Shown: positions 17,832 to 55,816 of the stretch, piece by piece
How positions within the stretch are numbered: the first letter of the stretch is position 1
How the letters are laid out: each line of letters starts with the position of its first letter
Assembly (NCBI RefSeq): GCF_014640315.1
Contig: NZ_BMGS01000016.1
Coordinates: 1 to 64,000 of the forward strand
DNA length: 64,000 bases
Direction of reading: 5' to 3'
From: Hymenobacter glacieicola
GTDB taxonomy: Bacteria; Bacteroidota; Bacteroidia; Cytophagales; Hymenobacteraceae
Notes under the pieces: generated by a model
Database searches by the model: none
Seen by the model: only the letters and a program-made list of their open reading frames with translations
What the model was told of the DNA's origin: nothing
Translations under genes and position numbers: made by a program

Positions 17832-18174
17832 GGCCCAGCCCTACGGGGAAACAATGGTCTGCATCGACCCGGCCCAGGCGCGGGTAATCTGGAAGTCCCT
17901 GCAACAGTTCGAGGCCCTCAAGCCCGAAGTACGCGCCCTGCGCCGCACGGTGGACACGCTGCACGCGGCCAACCACACGCTGCTGCTCCGCTCCCGCGCC
18001 GACAGCGCCCAGGCCAGCTCGTACAAGCAGGCCCTTGGCACGCAGGAGCGCCTGACCGTGGATGCCGACAACCGCGCCACCATCGCCCAGCTAAAAGCCC
18101 GCAAAAGAGGCTGGCTCTCTGCGGGCTTAGGGGCGTTACTGGTCGTGGTAACAGGATTGGCCGTTAGCCACTAG
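17749..18174 (+). CDS. Exported coiled-coil protein overlapping the spanin gene
   Basis: 141 residues. A clear signal peptide (MKPFLPLILSLFLASPAFS) with a likely cleavage after AFS, then a helical region (ALRRTVDTLHAANHTLLLR) and a C-terminal hydrophobic segment (GLGALLVVVTGLAV). There is no lipobox cysteine, so it is not a classical Rz1 lipoprotein. The embedded overlap with the previous gene and place next to the lysis genes still suggest an outer partner in envelope disruption. The last four bases overlap the convergent RNA ligase gene. Confidence 0.55.
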   Translation: MKPFLPLILSLFLASPAFSQHTAPLPPKAQPYGETMVCIDPAQARVIWKSLQQFEALKPEVRALRRTVDTLHAANHTLLLRSRADSAQASSYKQALGTQERLTVDADNRATIAQLKARKRGWLSAGLGALLVVVTGLAVSH

Positions 18175-19109
18175 AATAAGTCAGGGCGCAGGGCTTTTAC
18201 CCGTCCAAAGACGAAATGTTGCAGCGTGTTGAAGTTGATAGTGGGGTTCTTTCGCGCTTTTACAAAGTTCCAGCACTCCTCTCGCACCACGTCATAGTAG
18301 ACCGTGTGAAGCAGTTGAGGGATGCGACGGGCAGTAAAGCCGCCATCAAGATCAATTTTGGCGAACACCTTGTCTACCAGCGCTTGTGTAACAAATTCAG
18401 TGGCAATTTCTTCCTCGACCAATTTACGCTCGGCGTGCAGGGGAGCGCCCATCGTTTTCGCGTGCTTTTCTTTAAACTCCGAGGTAACAATCTTCGCCCA
18501 CGTCTGCCGTCCGTACTTGTTGAAGAAAGCATAGTTCTTGATAACCACCCCTTCCCCGCATCCTTGCCCGTCTTTAATGAGACACACGTTGTTTTGCAGT
18601 TCATGGCAGAACGCCTCAAAGGTTCCGTTGCGGATAATCTTGAGCGGAGCCAAGTACTCGATACCGTGCCGCTCAAGTAGCGGTTTATAGGCATTGTAAG
18701 GCAAATATGCCTCTGGTTCTTCTTCTGACTCGGCCATTAGGTGCGGGGCCGCTACATCGAACACGTAAAACTTGCGCCACGCATCATCTCGATAGGTGCT
18801 AATGGAGTGAGGCACCAGCCATTCCCCAAACAGCCGATGGTTGGGGTTTTCACTCAAATAGTTAAACAGTTCTACTGACTTACTGGCCCAGGCGTAAAAA
18901 CCGGCGTTGTCGGATTCAAGGCTTAGCTCGCGGTTGCGGCTGCCAGCCTTCACCACACCATCTTCCAACCATACGGAAGCATTGGTGCCATCAATCTTCG
19001 GGAATACATAGGTTTCTCCTAACTCAATTCCCAGCACCTCTGGCGTGCCAAAGCGCTCAAGGTGCATATACTTCTTAAATCTGCTGGCGGTAGCTACTGC
19101 CTGTTCCAT
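18171..19109 (-). CDS. RNA ligase (T4 Rnl2/nucleotidyltransferase family)
   Basis: 312 residues from ATG 19109; an in-frame ATG at 19205 lies upstream of the promoter and is rejected. Nucleotidyltransferase motifs are present: motif I KIDGTN with Lys38 as AMP acceptor, motif III around RLFGEW (92-97), motif IV EGVVIK (186-191) and motif V WAKIV with Lys206. The enzyme would seal 3'-OH/5'-phosphate RNA ends, typically to repair tRNAs cut by host defence. It is a single minus-strand gene placed between spanin-like and holin-like genes, with its own promoter and visibly lower GC than neighbours. Confidence 0.85.
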   Translation of the reverse strand: MEQAVATASRFKKYMHLERFGTPEVLGIELGETYVFPKIDGTNASVWLEDGVVKAGSRNRELSLESDNAGFYAWASKSVELFNYLSENPNHRLFGEWLVPHSISTYRDDAWRKFYVFDVAAPHLMAESEEEPEAYLPYNAYKPLLERHGIEYLAPLKIIRNGTFEAFCHELQNNVCLIKDGQGCGEGVVIKNYAFFNKYGRQTWAKIVTSEFKEKHAKTMGAPLHAERKLVEEEIATEFVTQALVDKVFAKIDLDGGFTARRIPQLLHTVYYDVVREECWNFVKARKNPTINFNTLQHFVFGRVKALRPDLF

Positions 19110-19132
19110 AAAGTAACGTGTTTGATTCAGCG

Positions 19133-19164
19133 CAATAGTACATATTCCTTTCGTTGTCTCCAAA
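19133..19164 (-). promoter_or_regulatory. Leftward promoter of RNA ligase
   Basis: Minus-strand TTTG (19164-19161), 20 bp, TACTATTG (19140-19133). An ACGAAAG element lies in the spacer. The gene starts 24 bases downstream. Confidence 0.7.
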
Positions 19165-19192
19165 TCTTCCGCCAACTTTATCTGTACCTTGC
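19165..19192 (+). promoter_or_regulatory. Rightward promoter of holin-like/endolysin genes
   Basis: AACTTTATCTG then TACCTTGC (19185-19192), exactly 20 bp from the CAAA at 19161-19164. The ATG at 19198 is only five bases from the -7 box, so the transcript is probably leaderless or nearly so. Confidence 0.65.
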
Positions 19193-19197
19193 TCACA

Positions 19198-19442
19198 TGG
19201 GCCAACTACTAGACCGTCTGAAATCCGAGACGCCCGTGTTCTGGAAGAACGTGCGCTCCCAAGCCATTTGGGCCATTACCTTCCTGGTGGGGGCCTACGC
19301 CGTAGACCTGGGCCACGCCCGGCTGAACCTGGTCAAGAACGTGGCCGTGGCCTTCGTGCAAGCCATGCTGTTCGGTATTGTCATTGCCGCCTCCTTTACC
19401 TGTATCAGCTCCACGGAGGTAGAAGACCAACCCACTCAATAA
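19198..19442 (+). CDS. Small membrane protein, candidate holin
   Basis: 81 residues. Two hydrophobic helices (AIWAITFLVGAYAVDL and VQAMLFGIVIAASFTCI) separated by a basic turn, with a charged C-terminal tail. It immediately precedes the M15 peptidase, which is the classical holin-endolysin order. Start chosen from ATG 19198 after the promoter; the longer frame to the left would run through the promoter. Confidence 0.65.
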
Positions 19443-22056: not shown

Positions 22057-22281
22057 ATGAAACAAACCCTCGCTTTCCAACTCTACGGCACCCGGCGTGA
22101 TGCCGCCGTATTCTTCGTTACCCTCGCCCTCTTTGTTGCAGGCTTGCTTGGCTTAATCTTCACACCAGACGCCGATTCTCTGGGTCTAGGCGCTACCATC
22201 GTCGGCGGGGCAATGTTCGGCCTTAATTTCGGCGCAACGCTCCTGAGCAAAGAAAACCGCCGTCTGCGTGGAGAACTATAA
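22057..22281 (+). CDS. Small two-helix membrane protein
   Basis: 74 residues. Hydrophobic helices FFVTLALFVAGLLGLIF and GATIVGGAMFGLNFGATLL, basic N-terminus and charged C-terminal tail (SKENRRLRGEL). ATG lies four bases after the previous stop and the end overlaps the next gene by 14 bases. A second holin-like or accessory membrane protein is possible. Confidence 0.6.
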   Translation: MKQTLAFQLYGTRRDAAVFFVTLALFVAGLLGLIFTPDADSLGLGATIVGGAMFGLNFGATLLSKENRRLRGEL

Positions 22282-22699: not shown

Positions 22700-22722
22700 G
22701 CCTATCAGATATTGCTTTCGAG

Positions 22723-22751
22723 AAAGCCCCGTGGTTTTGCTGCGGGGTTTT
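22723..22751 (+). terminator. Rho-independent terminator
   Basis: AAAGCCCCG paired with CGGGGTTTT (one G-U) around a 10-11-nt loop, followed by a short T-rich stretch, 23 bases after the membrane-protein operon. It separates that operon from the non-coding transcription unit. Confidence 0.8.
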
Positions 22752-22778
22752 CTGTGAAAAATATTTTCGCAACAGCAG

Positions 22779-22808
22779 TTGCAAGAGCGAAAATTTCCCG
22801 TACTTTTG
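22779..22808 (+). promoter_or_regulatory. Promoter of the non-coding transcription unit
   Basis: TTG (22779-22781), 19 bp, then TACTTTTG (22801-22808), an exact TAnnTTTG -7 box. GCGAAAATTT lies in the spacer as in other phage promoters. The predicted start, about 22815, directly precedes the first paired element GGTGGAG (22819-22825). Confidence 0.75.
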
Positions 22809-22814
22809 GTATCA

Positions 22815-23396
22815 ACAAGGTGGAGTCGGATAATCGTATTCCCTAGACCCATTGGTAATGACGGGCTGTTGTTCGCCCCGAACTGGCAGAGTATTGGTTG
22901 GTACCAACTGAGAAGTGTCGTCTAGCCGTTGCAACGGTGGTGGTTCAATTCCACCCTCCACTTCAATTACAGCCAGCCAATCGGGCGGCTGCCATAATAG
23001 AGAGTAGCAAGGGACACGGCTAAGACGGATAACAAGCCCCTGCTGAGAAACTACCAAGCCCTCCACCGCGCAAGCCGATGGGCTCAGGCGTTACTCTCTA
23101 CCTTTCCCCAAACAGGGCGTCGCCTAAAGAAACTCTCGTCCGACTGCACGGGAGAGAAGGCAATGATTGGTGTATCCCGTTGCTCCCTGCGCGTTGCCAG
23201 AACGAGTCTTGGCGGACTTGTTCTGCCTACCGCACACGCGAATCATCGGCGGGAATACATAGTAGGGGGTGGCGACTGAAAAGATTTGCCCCTAATCATT
23301 GCAAGCAGTAAAACAGAACCCTGGACGCCTCTCCCGGAAGCGCACCAGCCGGGGTCGAAAAGCAAAAGCCCCGACTGGACAACCAGTTGGGGCTTT
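22815..23396 (+). ncRNA. Candidate large structured non-coding RNA with a tRNA-like T-arm
   Basis: About 580 nt between a strong promoter and strong terminator with no convincing reading frame. Helices seen by eye: 11 bp with one G-U at 22998-23008/23090-23100; 11 bp with one G-U at 23198-23208/23215-23225; CGGCT 23017-23021 with AGCCG 23073-23077; TAGGGG 23263-23268 with CCCCTA 23289-23294; CCCGG 23333-23337 with CCGGG 23349-23353; palindromes GTTGGTACCAAC and CCGTTGCAACGG. At 22939-22955 there is a canonical T-arm (GGTGG, loop TTCAATT, CCACC) followed by CTCCACT, which can pair with the 5' GGTGGAG. CTCCACC at 23061-23067 is an alternative partner. Not a complete tRNA, and no tmRNA tag frame was found. 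Size and phage setting recall the ROOL and GOLLD large phage RNAs, but identity is not established. Confidence 0.65.
23365..23396. terminator. Strong bidirectional terminator
   Basis: 14-bp stem AAAGCCCCGACTGG / CCAGTTGGGGCTTT (one mismatch or wobble) with ACAA loop, A-run before and T-rich sequence after. It ends the non-coding RNA and also serves the convergent gene ending at 23416. Confidence 0.9.
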
Positions 23397-23415
23397 CTGT
23401 TTCCAGTCAGGGTGA

Positions 23416-25050
23416 CTAGGCGTATTGAATCACAATAATCAAGTCATTGGCCCCGATGCCGGAAACCAGGCCTCCGACCAGCGTACCCAGGCTCGGGGCC
23501 GTGCCAATGGTAATACCCAGGCCGTTTGTAAGCGTGATGTACTTGCCGTCCAGGGAGAAGCGGAAAGTCTGCCCGGCCGGGATGGCAAAGCTAATGGCCG
23601 GTACGCTGCCCGTGGTCGGGGTGGTGGCCTGGTTAAAGATGTTTAAGTAGCGCAGCGTCGTCGTCGTGTTCGTGACGTGGACGGAGTAGAGCTGGGCCGG
23701 GGCGTTTTTAATGAGGGCCGGAGTGCCCGCCAGCGAGGAGGACGTGTACACCGTGGCCGGGGCGGCATTGTTGATGGTCAGGTTGCCTACGACGGGTACT
23801 GCCCCGCCGACCAAGGGCGGGGTTCCGGCCGCGATGGTTTGCAGGGCCGTATTGGCAATGTCCTGTTTAGCCGCCGTGGCTACTTTGCTATCCAGATTAG
23901 CAAGGGAGGCATTCCCGGCCGTTTGCAGGGCCGACGTTGCCACCTTCGTATCGAGGCTGTTGAGGGCCGTGATTTCCAGGTTTTGATTGGCCGCCGTCGC
24001 CGCCCCGGTGGGCAAGGGTTGGGAGACTTGGCTTACCTGCTGGTTAACCGGAAAGGTCACGGCGACAGCCAGCGGATTGCCCGCGTCGTTCTTGATTTCA
24101 ACCTCCCCCTGCACACTGACCGCCTGCACGGAGGGAAAGGCCACCTGCGCGGTTACGGAGCCGCTGACGGGCAGCGGATTGGGCAGGTTCACGTCCACCG
24201 GCACCCGCCCGTTGACCGGGGCAGGGAGCTTATCACCCACGGCCTGCACGGCGCGGGTGGTGGCCGCCTGCCCGGTGGTCGTGGCGTAGTCCGCGCTCGG
24301 GTTGTCGAGGACGACGTGCAGGGGCGCGGCCCGCAGTTCCGTATCGGTCAGCGCGTCGCTTTGCTGGCTCTGCTGGGCGGCGAGTACGAGCTGGTCCAGG
24401 ATGGCCGCGAGTTGGGCTTCAATGGCCTGCTGCTGGACTTCCGTGGCCGCCCCGTAGGCCAGGCTCGACTCGCTGACAATGTTTACGTCTAGGGTGCTGT
24501 TGAGCACGTCTACGCGCAGCTTTTGGGGCTCGCGCAAGCTCACCAGCAGGTTCCCGGCCTCATCGGTATGCAGCTTGTTGTCGAGCGAGACGAGGCGCTG
24601 GGCGGAAAGCGTCTGCATGGCCGAGTCGTCGGGGCTGCTACCGCTGCCGCCGCCCGTGGGGCCTTCGTAGGTAGGCGTACCGTCGTCGGTGGTGGGCACG
24701 GCGGCGGTGTTGGTGGCCTGCACCCCGGCCCCTTGAATAAGAAAGGTGGAGTCAAAGCCGAAGGGGGTGCGGCGGCGGAAGGGCTGCTCGGCCAGGGTGG
24801 CGGGCGAGGCCCAGGCGGCGAGGAAGTCGGCCCGGTCCTCGAAGGCCAGGTAGCGGAAGGAGGCCGAGTTGCCGGAGCGGGTACGGGAGATAATCAGCCA
24901 GTAGCCGAGCGCCGGGACGGCCATTGCATAATATTCTACCCCTGTGCTAGTTGAGTGTATTTCGAGTAAGGTTAGCTGCGCCTGCTGGGCCACGATAAGG
25001 GCGGTATTAAAGGGTGGATTGTTCCGGTCCAAGATACCAAAAAGCCGCAC
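23416..25050 (-). CDS. Head-fibre/decoration-like structural protein
   Basis: Up to 544 residues. An N-terminal domain is followed by a Thr/Gly/Pro linker, then long repeats of short helical heptads (VATSALQTAGNASLANLDS, KVATAAKQDIANTAL), a beta region of VPVDVNLPNPLPVSGSV type and a beta-rich end. This pattern resembles phage head or tail fibres. The GTG start at 25050 lies inside a leftward terminator hairpin (25041-25066). A TTG at about 25032, GTG at about 24993 or ATG at about 24929 are alternatives. It is the only fibre-like gene in the leftward early block. Confidence 0.65.
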   Translation of the reverse strand: MRLFGILDRNNPPFNTALIVAQQAQLTLLEIHSTSTGVEYYAMAVPALGYWLIISRTRSGNSASFRYLAFEDRADFLAAWASPATLAEQPFRRRTPFGFDSTFLIQGAGVQATNTAAVPTTDDGTPTYEGPTGGGSGSSPDDSAMQTLSAQRLVSLDNKLHTDEAGNLLVSLREPQKLRVDVLNSTLDVNIVSESSLAYGAATEVQQQAIEAQLAAILDQLVLAAQQSQQSDALTDTELRAAPLHVVLDNPSADYATTTGQAATTRAVQAVGDKLPAPVNGRVPVDVNLPNPLPVSGSVTAQVAFPSVQAVSVQGEVEIKNDAGNPLAVAVTFPVNQQVSQVSQPLPTGAATAANQNLEITALNSLDTKVATSALQTAGNASLANLDSKVATAAKQDIANTALQTIAAGTPPLVGGAVPVVGNLTINNAAPATVYTSSSLAGTPALIKNAPAQLYSVHVTNTTTTLRYLNIFNQATTPTTGSVPAISFAIPAGQTFRFSLDGKYITLTNGLGITIGTAPSLGTLVGGLVSGIGANDLIIVIQYA

Positions 25051-37824: not shown

Positions 37825-38079
37825 TTAGTTGGTGGCGGGCAGCTCAACTTCGCAATTTGAAAAATGCCATTTTATTTCTGCACCAATCCAGCGTTTTTCG
37901 CGGGTGGCAATGCGTACTTTATACCGCTTTGCTCCTTCGCTAATTCCGCCCGATACTACCTCGTACGCCTTGGTATTAGGCTTGTTTCGGGCGTTGGTTA
38001 ACCCCTGAGCTATCATTTGAGCAATAGCTTTACGTTCGGTCGCTGTTACGTGCGAATGATTGGGAACTATGAATTTCAT
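37825..38079 (-). CDS. Hypothetical protein (84 aa)
   Basis: Begins MKFIVPNHSHVTATERKAI; helix then beta strands (KRYKVRIATREKRWIGAEI). Leader motif AACCAACCCC lies 8 bases before the ATG, preceded by a tRNA-like hairpin at 38110-38149. Unknown function. Confidence 0.6.
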   Translation of the reverse strand: MKFIVPNHSHVTATERKAIAQMIAQGLTNARNKPNTKAYEVVSGGISEGAKRYKVRIATREKRWIGAEIKWHFSNCEVELPATN

Positions 38080-55400: not shown

Positions 55401-55816
55401 AAACCGACGACCTGAAAGCGGCTGCCCTTAAGATTGAGCCCGATATTCTGCGCTCCGAGCTGGCAACGGCCATCCTGCTGGCGGCCAAGTACGACGAGGT
55501 GATGGGCTTGCCGGAAGGTAGCAAGGTGATGAGCAACGCCCCCGGTGCGCTGGCTTACTGCTGCGAGCAAGGCTGGCTGCAAAAGCGCGACTCTATGGGC
55601 GTAGTGGAAATCTGGCGCTGCTCCAAGCCGGGGCAGTGGGCCACGATTCCCAGCAAGCCCCGCGAGTTGGACAAGGCCGCGCTGCTGGCCCGCACCCGCA
55701 AGCAGGAAGCCAGCCACGTTCTCGCTGGCAACACGCTGGATGCCGAGCAAAAGAAAACCGGCCGCTCCAAGAAGAAGCAGCCGGTTGCCGTGCCCCAGGG
55801 CGAGCTATTTGTTTAG
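55397..55816 (+). CDS. Hypothetical protein (139 aa)
   Basis: Begins MKTDDLKAAALKIEPDILR. Middle resembles a small winged helix (SNAPGALAYCCEQGWLQKR). Basic Lys-rich C-terminal tail (KKTGRSKKKQPVAVPQGEL). Starts inside the stop of the HAD gene and ends on the stop of the convergent gene. Unknown. Confidence 0.6.
   Translation: MKTDDLKAAALKIEPDILRSELATAILLAAKYDEVMGLPEGSKVMSNAPGALAYCCEQGWLQKRDSMGVVEIWRCSKPGQWATIPSKPRELDKAALLARTRKQEASHVLAGNTLDAEQKKTGRSKKKQPVAVPQGELFV

Follow-up and report, generated by a model that had tools for sequence, protein, structure and literature searches.

A probable tRNA mimic lacking an anticodon arm at a tRNA-island site of a Hymenobacter phage

The window analyzed here, a stretch of 64,000 nucleotides from Hymenobacter glacieicola, comprises bases 1-64000 of an 80703-base (80.7 kb) phage contig. 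The contig ends overlap by 127 bases, indicating a circular phage genome. A search for related phages by terminase in 204 family genomes (E <= 1e-20) returned three matches: the phage's own genome, G203 (63% identity) and the prophage of H. metallicola 9PBR-1 (G049, 37% identity). The phage has terminase, capsid-region and tail genes in common with these two prophages. Terminase searches also revealed three distant relatives in IMG/VR and, with two peptide patterns applied to GTDB contigs (80 candidates, a search of low reach), H. metallicola only; searches with the peptidase and the phosphoesterase likewise returned only H. metallicola besides the phage itself.

The RNA locus is positioned at the end of a rightward run of genes encoding a peptidase, a phosphoesterase-like protein and small proteins, and a leftward gene (23416-25050, minus strand) converges on it head-on. 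ARAGORN identifies no tRNA gene in the whole phage contig. An RNA ligase of the phrog_548 family is encoded on the minus strand among the late genes of the phage; it fits an RNA-repair or counter-defence setting and is no proof of one. The coordinates of the features at the locus are given in Table 1.

Direct reading confirms the promoter that an earlier, sequence-only reading had placed ahead of the RNA, with TTG at 22779-22781 and TACTTTTG at 22801-22808. There are four TAnnTTTG sequences on the plus strand of the 64-kb window, and only the one at the RNA locus has a TTG 17-23 bases upstream. The promoter is a member of a family of nine sites in the contig with at least 15 of the 20 core bases CGAAAACTTCTCGTACTTTG and a TTG (window 19984, 22788, 28453, 51395, 54834 and 59909; contig 71633, 74039 and 76355). 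No such site arose in 10 first-order Markov simulations searched with the same template; since the template was derived from the counted sites themselves, the count of nine is descriptive. Seven of the nine sites are located 4-39 nt upstream of an ORF of at least 60 codons, and the two that have no near ORF are those ahead of the RNA locus and ahead of the leader RNA of the phage Ro60 gene. The prophage region of G203 has no site with at least 15 core bases and that of H. metallicola has one, without TTG. The spacer of the family is near-palindromic (CGAnAAnTTnTCG) and is perhaps an operator. The 14-bp terminator at the other end of the unit also proved correct on direct reading (one G-U pair). 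It is flanked by A and T runs, the A-run preceding the hairpin, and its sequence is such that it could also serve the convergent minus-strand gene.

Table 1. Features at the RNA locus and one gene of its surroundings, in window coordinates.
Feature	Position	Strand	Basis and remarks
RNA ligase gene	18171..19205	-	PF09414, E 4.2e-17; phrog_548, E 1.5e-47; context only
Promoter	22779..22808	+	TTG (22779), TACTTTTG (22801-22808), spacer with CGAAAATTTCCCG; member of the phage family TTG-N7-CGAAAACTTCTCGTACTTTG
tRNA-like domain 1, 144 nt	22819..22962	+	Predicted 5' end of transcript; scans and folds
Acceptor-like stem, 5' strand, GGTGGAG	22819..22825	+	Direct reading, scan
D-arm-like hairpin GGA...TCC	22828..22842	+	Two bases past acceptor strand; minimum-energy fold of isolated domain
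Stem TAGAC (22844-22848)/GTCTA (22920-22924), in the place of the anticodon stem	22844..22924	+	ARAGORN with introns and lowered threshold; constrained fold
Variable-arm-like hairpin CCGTTGCAACGG, one base 5' of T-arm	22926..22937	+	Constrained fold only; absent from the unconstrained minimum-energy fold of equal energy
Canonical T-arm GGTGG-TTCAATT-CCACC	22939..22955	+	Direct reading; T-arm scan
Acceptor-like stem, 3' strand, CTCCACT, gapless to T-arm	22956..22962	+	Direct reading, scan
37-nt block common to the H. metallicola prophage	22968..23004	+	Hairpin CAGCC(A)GCCAATCGGGCGGCTG and TAGAGAG
First 11-bp helix, 5' strand	22998..23008	+	Pairing probability 0.61-0.73; TAGAGAG is also the H. 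metallicola 5' acceptor strand
First 11-bp helix, 3' strand	23090..23100	+	In the H. metallicola prophage, but not here, CTCTCTA comes after a T-arm-like hairpin
Second 11-bp helix (23198-23208/23215-23225), tip of a long rod	23198..23225	+	Pairing probability 0.99-1.0
14-bp terminator hairpin	23365..23396	both	Direct reading; several sub-threshold Rfam matches on stem

The unit starts with a tRNA-like head. The T-arm and the acceptor strand that follows it close with the predicted 5' end as had been claimed, forming seven pairs of which one is G-U, and the bases 3' of the acceptor are TCA, not CCA. A strict scan for a T-arm with a 7-bp acceptor on both strands of the 80.7-kb contig yields a single match, the RNA locus. 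The same scan gave one match each in 2 of 20 shuffled contigs and none in 2,000 shuffles of the 547-nt region. If the acceptor requirement is dropped, the contig has three canonical T-arms. A 71-nt insert stands where the anticodon loop belongs (within 22844-22924), so this tRNA-like RNA cannot decode. The loop of the D-arm-like hairpin (22828-22842) has no GG.

When the isolated domain is folded, the acceptor forms, the D-like hairpin follows it after two bases, and the T-arm stacks on the acceptor helix. A cloverleaf-like fold constrained to contain TAGAC/GTCTA and CCGTTGCAACGG has an energy of -44.8 kcal/mol, equal to the minimum. The acceptor helix has a pairing probability of at least 0.75 in the isolated 146-nt domain and of 0.0 in the full 583-nt transcript, and the T-arm one of 0.74-0.75 and 0.92-0.95, respectively. 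The folding energy of the isolated domain is no better than that of shuffles (z -0.65, 48/200), and energy modelling by itself is insufficient to settle whether the acceptor of the head pairs.

The statement of the sequence-only reading that this is neither a complete tRNA nor an obvious tmRNA agrees with ARAGORN and Rfam, which give no match at standard thresholds; in the window, ARAGORN with default settings reports no tRNA and Rfam no match at the gathering threshold. For ARAGORN to model a tRNA on this acceptor, introns had to be permitted and the threshold lowered to 60%, and this intron-type model has an anticodon loop (CCATTGC) without U33. An intron-free model at 22885-22964 (60% threshold) has a mismatched acceptor. 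We thus found no cloverleaf at standard thresholds and no 7-nt anticodon loop with U33 that would denote a tRNA. A tmRNA is modeled by neither ARAGORN nor Rfam, and at 60% there are only overlapping permuted models, with 'Tag not identified' in those listed. A group I intron in a tRNA is absent among the Rfam matches listed.

The two related prophages place the locus at a site of tRNA genes. In both, tRNA genes are located at, or no more than ~1.5 kb from, the corresponding place, with a tRNA-like structure devoid of an anticodon, and a terminator, close by. In G203, the homologue of the gene at 22268 is followed by a terminator-like hairpin, tRNA-His, tRNA-Trp, ~140 nt, the tRNA-like structure, ~180 nt and a terminator. 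The G203 structure (81 nt, GCGGAAC...CTAGG-TTCGAAT-CCTAG-GTTCTGC) was found by the same strict scan; U33 is missing from the loop at the anticodon position and a single base separates that arm from the T-arm, which excludes an ordinary tRNA. The H. metallicola prophage encodes tRNA-Met, tRNA-Pro, tRNA-His and tRNA-Trp by ARAGORN, and one further tRNA seen by Rfam alone (L051:15290-15364, minus strand, 41.8 bits) and missed by ARAGORN. Here small protein genes, over ~1 kb, separate the tRNA genes from the tRNA-like structure, which reads TAGAGAG...GCGGG-TATCCAAT-CCCGC-CTCTCTA and is followed by a terminator. The T-loop of this structure is 8 nt long. The strict scan did not return the structure, which was recognized by eye and from its fold. 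All three acceptor sequences, in the window, G203 and H. metallicola, are different, and each is complementary to the opposite strand of its own stem.

The H. metallicola prophage contains the one sequence homologue of the RNA that we found, a 37-nt block (E 1.2e-6 in a 160-kb search space; 0/500 shuffles as high). As this block includes TAGAGAG, the first 11-bp helix downstream of the head corresponds to the H. metallicola acceptor stem; in the window the helix is longer and the adjoining T-arm is missing. The G203 RNA has no significant similarity to the window RNA (214/500 shuffles as high) or to the H. metallicola RNA (166/500). Comparison of the region 22780-23365 with the 204 family genomes (E <= 1) gave some match in 142; those listed are short (17-44 nt), the best non-self match (E 1.3e-4) being near the 3' end. 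The listed non-self matches of the H. metallicola RNA in the same 204 genomes all fall in its last 60 bases, the terminator. A blastn search of the phage collection with window 22700-23420 returned three records, all on the terminator stem only, and the H. metallicola and G203 RNAs matched phages only in terminators and tRNAs. The RNA has no match in plasmids and matches only itself in its own genome. In IMG/VR, the exact pattern of the T-arm was not found and that of the hairpin only in the H. metallicola prophage; the hairpin pattern occurs twice among 390 genomes from the order, in the window's own genome and in H. metallicola.

Downstream of the head, the two 11-bp helices described by the sequence-only reading are present where it had put them. 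The region 22814-23360 contains two helices of at least 11 bp with no more than one G-U pair and a span of no more than 110 (shuffle mean 0.03, 0/60 shuffles reached two), a count for which the threshold was fixed at the observed value. Folded whole, 22965-23360 has a z of -1.54, with 13/200 shuffles as good, and 3 of 30 control windows of the phage (z -2.92 to 1.82) fall below it. Its halves folded apart have z of -2.01 (22965-23105, 10/200) and -2.25 (23106-23360, 5/200). The whole unit reaches a z of -3.37 (0/100 shuffles) with the terminator included in the fold. The Rfam covariance models of GOLLD and ROOL do not match the RNA at gathering and are not among the matches listed at E <= 10.

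Of the known RNAs compared, the one nearest in build is annotated in phage T4. The T4 record lists rnaC (L101:1409-1547, minus strand) as 'small, stable RNA; species 1 RNA', 139 nt in length, beside rnaD and eight tRNAs. It starts with TCGATTCG and ends in CCGGG-TTCGAAT-CCCGG-CGTTTCG. We aligned eight sequences, T4 and seven relatives picked mostly for divergence among 40 of 718 and 60 of 710 matching records, with H163 (a partial match) and H160 excluded; the structure was drawn from T4 and therefore leans to it. Five of the seven pairs of the acceptor-like stem form, one with a compensatory change (A-U to G-C), and two central U-U never pair. Changes on both sides affect one pair of the T-stem and five of the hairpin. 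The percentage paired, the cells changed on both sides and the covariation score are above 500/500 shuffles, and the pairs changed on both sides (45/500) and the pair types (365/500) are not clearly above shuffles; all five measures exceed slid versions. The loop pairing TTGACG/CGTCAA and TTCGAGG are invariant in 8/8 aligned sequences, and the inserted domain is largely changed in three (CF-SP2, VPA32 and NM4.3). In four of the eight, rnaC is located between two tRNA genes. No Rfam family scores above gathering for rnaC.

The RNA studied here and rnaC are alike in size (144 and 139 nt) and in plan: a canonical T-arm stacked directly on the 3' acceptor strand, the 5' acceptor strand at the 5' end, a hairpin one base 5' of the T-arm, and a large insert in place of the anticodon arm. 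Both are at or inside a phage tRNA cluster, for the RNA here by synteny, and the best own-strand Rfam match of both is a sub-threshold tRNA-Sec (19.7 bits here, 17.5 bits for rnaC). The build of stacked T-arm and acceptor, insert and no anticodon arm is thus found here, but the full transcript folds without the acceptor helix. Two central U-U mismatches interrupt the rnaC acceptor, whereas the one here is fully paired, and the domain here has its own promoter and a ~400-nt tail. TTCGAGG, TTGACG and CGTCAA are absent from 22814-22964. No T4-like phage is listed at E <= 1 in the blastn search with 22700-23420, for which the phage collection included T4. In the absence of sequence kinship, the phage RNA is not a member of the rnaC family; it is probably of the kind that rnaC represents, and not a member of GOLLD, ROOL, YrlA, tRNA or tmRNA. 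We know of no function of T4 species 1 RNA, so the analogy yields none for the phage RNA, and of no report of rnaC as a tRNA mimic; an open-access literature search on T4 species 1 RNA found no paper, which says little.

We propose that the locus is a phage non-coding unit at a tRNA-gene site whose first 144 nt are a processed tRNA mimic that engages tRNA-reading proteins, a reading to which we give about an even chance. The promoter family, the T-arm, the acceptor complementarity, the synteny and the absence of an anticodon arm can be read directly in the letters. Enzymes of tRNA maturation, like several tRNA-binding proteins, recognize a stack of T-arm and acceptor. Transcription would start a few bases 5' of the acceptor strand, and host RNase P and the tRNA 3' processing enzyme (RNase Z), recognizing this stack, could then release the 144-nt RNA. 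Cleavage would free the tRNA-like RNA, stable and devoid of an anticodon, from the segment downstream, and the mature RNA would engage proteins that read the T-arm/acceptor half of a tRNA. We infer expression, processing and stability from the sequence features, as we do a decoy role. Its most likely role would be that of a bait that spares real tRNAs, rnaC-like in build and place; taken by itself, this role is a tentative suggestion. A bait that has no anticodon would be appropriate for proteins reading the upper half of a tRNA. Two papers discuss phage tRNAs as answers to tRNA-cutting defences (PMC10264068, PMC12409363). Overall, the locus probably encodes a phage tRNA mimic of narrow distribution, situated at a tRNA island.

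Among the alternatives, decay of a tRNA gene ranks first, though it is unlikely: phage tRNA genes would formerly have stood at the site, as they do in the relatives, and an insertion would have destroyed the anticodon arm of one of them and left a functionless transcribed pseudogene. The relatives have intact tRNA genes at this place, ARAGORN tRNAs are absent from the phage's own contig, the D-like hairpin has no usual GG and the domain folds no better than shuffles, all of which speaks for decay; PMC6582537 describes a pseudo-tRNA within the GOLLD gene of a Mycobacterium. The acceptor and the T-arm, however, are fully paired, the promoter is well kept, and tRNA-like structures with no anticodon are present close to good tRNAs in both relatives as well. 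The phage Ro60 gene provides another candidate explanation, which we consider improbable, in which the RNA would be a second Ro60 partner, a Y-RNA-like tRNA mimic bound via helix 22998-23100. The gene (TROVE/Ro60, contig 76725-78212, outside the window; PF05731, E 1.9e-16) has a leader RNA under the same promoter family, and GTAGCAAGG, next to the 11-bp helix, conforms to the motif in the three repeats of this leader, for which a relaxed contig scan gave one other fit outside the leader, at 55518. According to PMC7790460, Y RNA tethers bacterial Ro60 (Rsr) to PNPase in Deinococcus, and YrlA contains a tRNA-like domain. YrlA and the putative mimic here have resemblance to tRNA in common, and a Ro60 gene is present in the same phage under the same promoter family. 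Yet the RNA here is not permuted, does not adjoin the Ro60 gene and has no YrlA among its Rfam matches: the permuted module (T-arm, closed acceptor hairpin, D-arm) is absent at T-arm 22939 and present in the leader RNA and in 19/29 other Ro60 loci. The RNA and the leader RNA have no significant similarity (60/500 shuffles as high), G203 and H. metallicola have the locus without a phage Ro60 (one TROVE match each, elsewhere in the genome), and the H. metallicola block, read directly, has no motif. Nor is the motif enriched in other Ro60 loci: 30 Ro60 loci contain six modules, of which five belong to the locus of this phage, and 38 control loci contain four, and the motif is therefore no general Ro site.

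A new class of large ornate RNA of the GOLLD or ROOL type, in which the tRNA-like head would be one component, is very unlikely in our view. The sequence-only reading had likened the RNA to ROOL and GOLLD and allowed for a new class with a tRNA-like domain; the tRNA-like 5' domain, the phage setting and the lack of an Rfam match remain of this, and the single large ornate RNA does not. Like GOLLD and ROOL, the RNA is several hundred nt long, non-coding and in a phage or prophage near tRNA islands, going by PMC6582537 and PMC12286853, the latter also stating that both RNAs are frequent neighbours of tRNA islands and that the GOLLD linker sometimes contains tRNAs. This island position is found by synteny with the two related phages, not in the phage's own contig. 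The helices exceed chance and the halves of 22965-23360 fold at z of -2.0 and -2.3. Kinship, however, does not follow from the resemblance, as neither family is among the Rfam matches at E <= 10, and no sequence homologue beyond 37 nt was found. As a whole, 22965-23360 folds about as well as other phage sequence, and on this evidence we do not accept a giant ornate RNA because this fold is ordinary and the terminator is usable by the convergent gene. That the locus is a short gene, or a leader or attenuator, is extremely unlikely. It contains a 77-aa ORF (23078-23311) and an 84-aa ORF on the opposite strand, but searches found no protein relative of the former, in line with the earlier judgement that the unit holds no convincing gene, and GGIEPP in the 84-aa minus-strand ORF is a reading of the antisense T-arm. 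Also against this reading, the next long gene beyond the terminator runs the opposite way.

Returning to an anticodon-less tRNA mimic as the preferred reading, we raise, as a doubtful generalization, a class of such mimics in phage tRNA islands with rnaC, the G203 and H. metallicola elements and the RNA here as members, which may share the job of holding proteins that grip or cut tRNAs. The class would, equally doubtfully, be defined by build and not by sequence, the acceptor and T-arm being kept and the anticodon half replaced by a fast-changing domain. Our literature searches for a class of anticodon-less phage tRNA mimics found no description. A second, unrelated phage lineage with the rnaC build at the same kind of site would make an oddity into a pattern, and such a pattern offers a test of whether these RNAs are bait for tRNA-targeting defences or for tRNA enzymes. 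Phage tRNA islands, often the sites of GOLLD and ROOL, may hide non-coding RNAs that tRNA finders and Rfam miss.

The leader RNA of the phage Ro60 gene is of interest in its own right. It is ~350 nt long (leader and gene, contig 76355-78212; L054:12356-14213) and contains three modules in tandem (GTRGYAA ... TTATC) as well as a permuted tRNA-like, YrlA-like module (T-arm, CCTAG...CTAGG, D-arm) with its T-arm at contig 76585. Rfam gives no match to the leader at gathering, the best being YrlA on the permuted module (17.6 bits against a gathering threshold of 69). By its sequence, the leader is a candidate for the phage's Y RNA. The best-matching phage TROVE protein (52% identity) is encoded by LR745206.1, a 634780-base uncultured phage. 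In the ~450 nt upstream of that gene (L112:1051-1505), a canonical T-arm was not seen, and GTAGTAA and TTATC occur in a leader-like style.

TROVE matches occur in 103 of the 204 family genomes. Canonical T-arms are present in 25 of 29 other Ro60 loci (L056-L084; 57 in total, 34 with a permuted YrlA-like module, in 19 loci), and 38 control loci contain three T-arms and no permuted module. An Rfam search of Ro60 loci L055-L074 at gathering named none YrlA and recovered three units as tRNA with a long insert. To judge from these sequences, the loci look like arrays of unannotated Y RNAs beside Ro60 in family genomes. The third canonical T-arm of the phage contig (window 38110-38149, minus strand; CCACG-TTCGACT-CGTGG with flanks GCCGG/CCGGC) occupies a short gap ahead of a minus-strand ATG at 38079 and is a possible mini tRNA-like leader.
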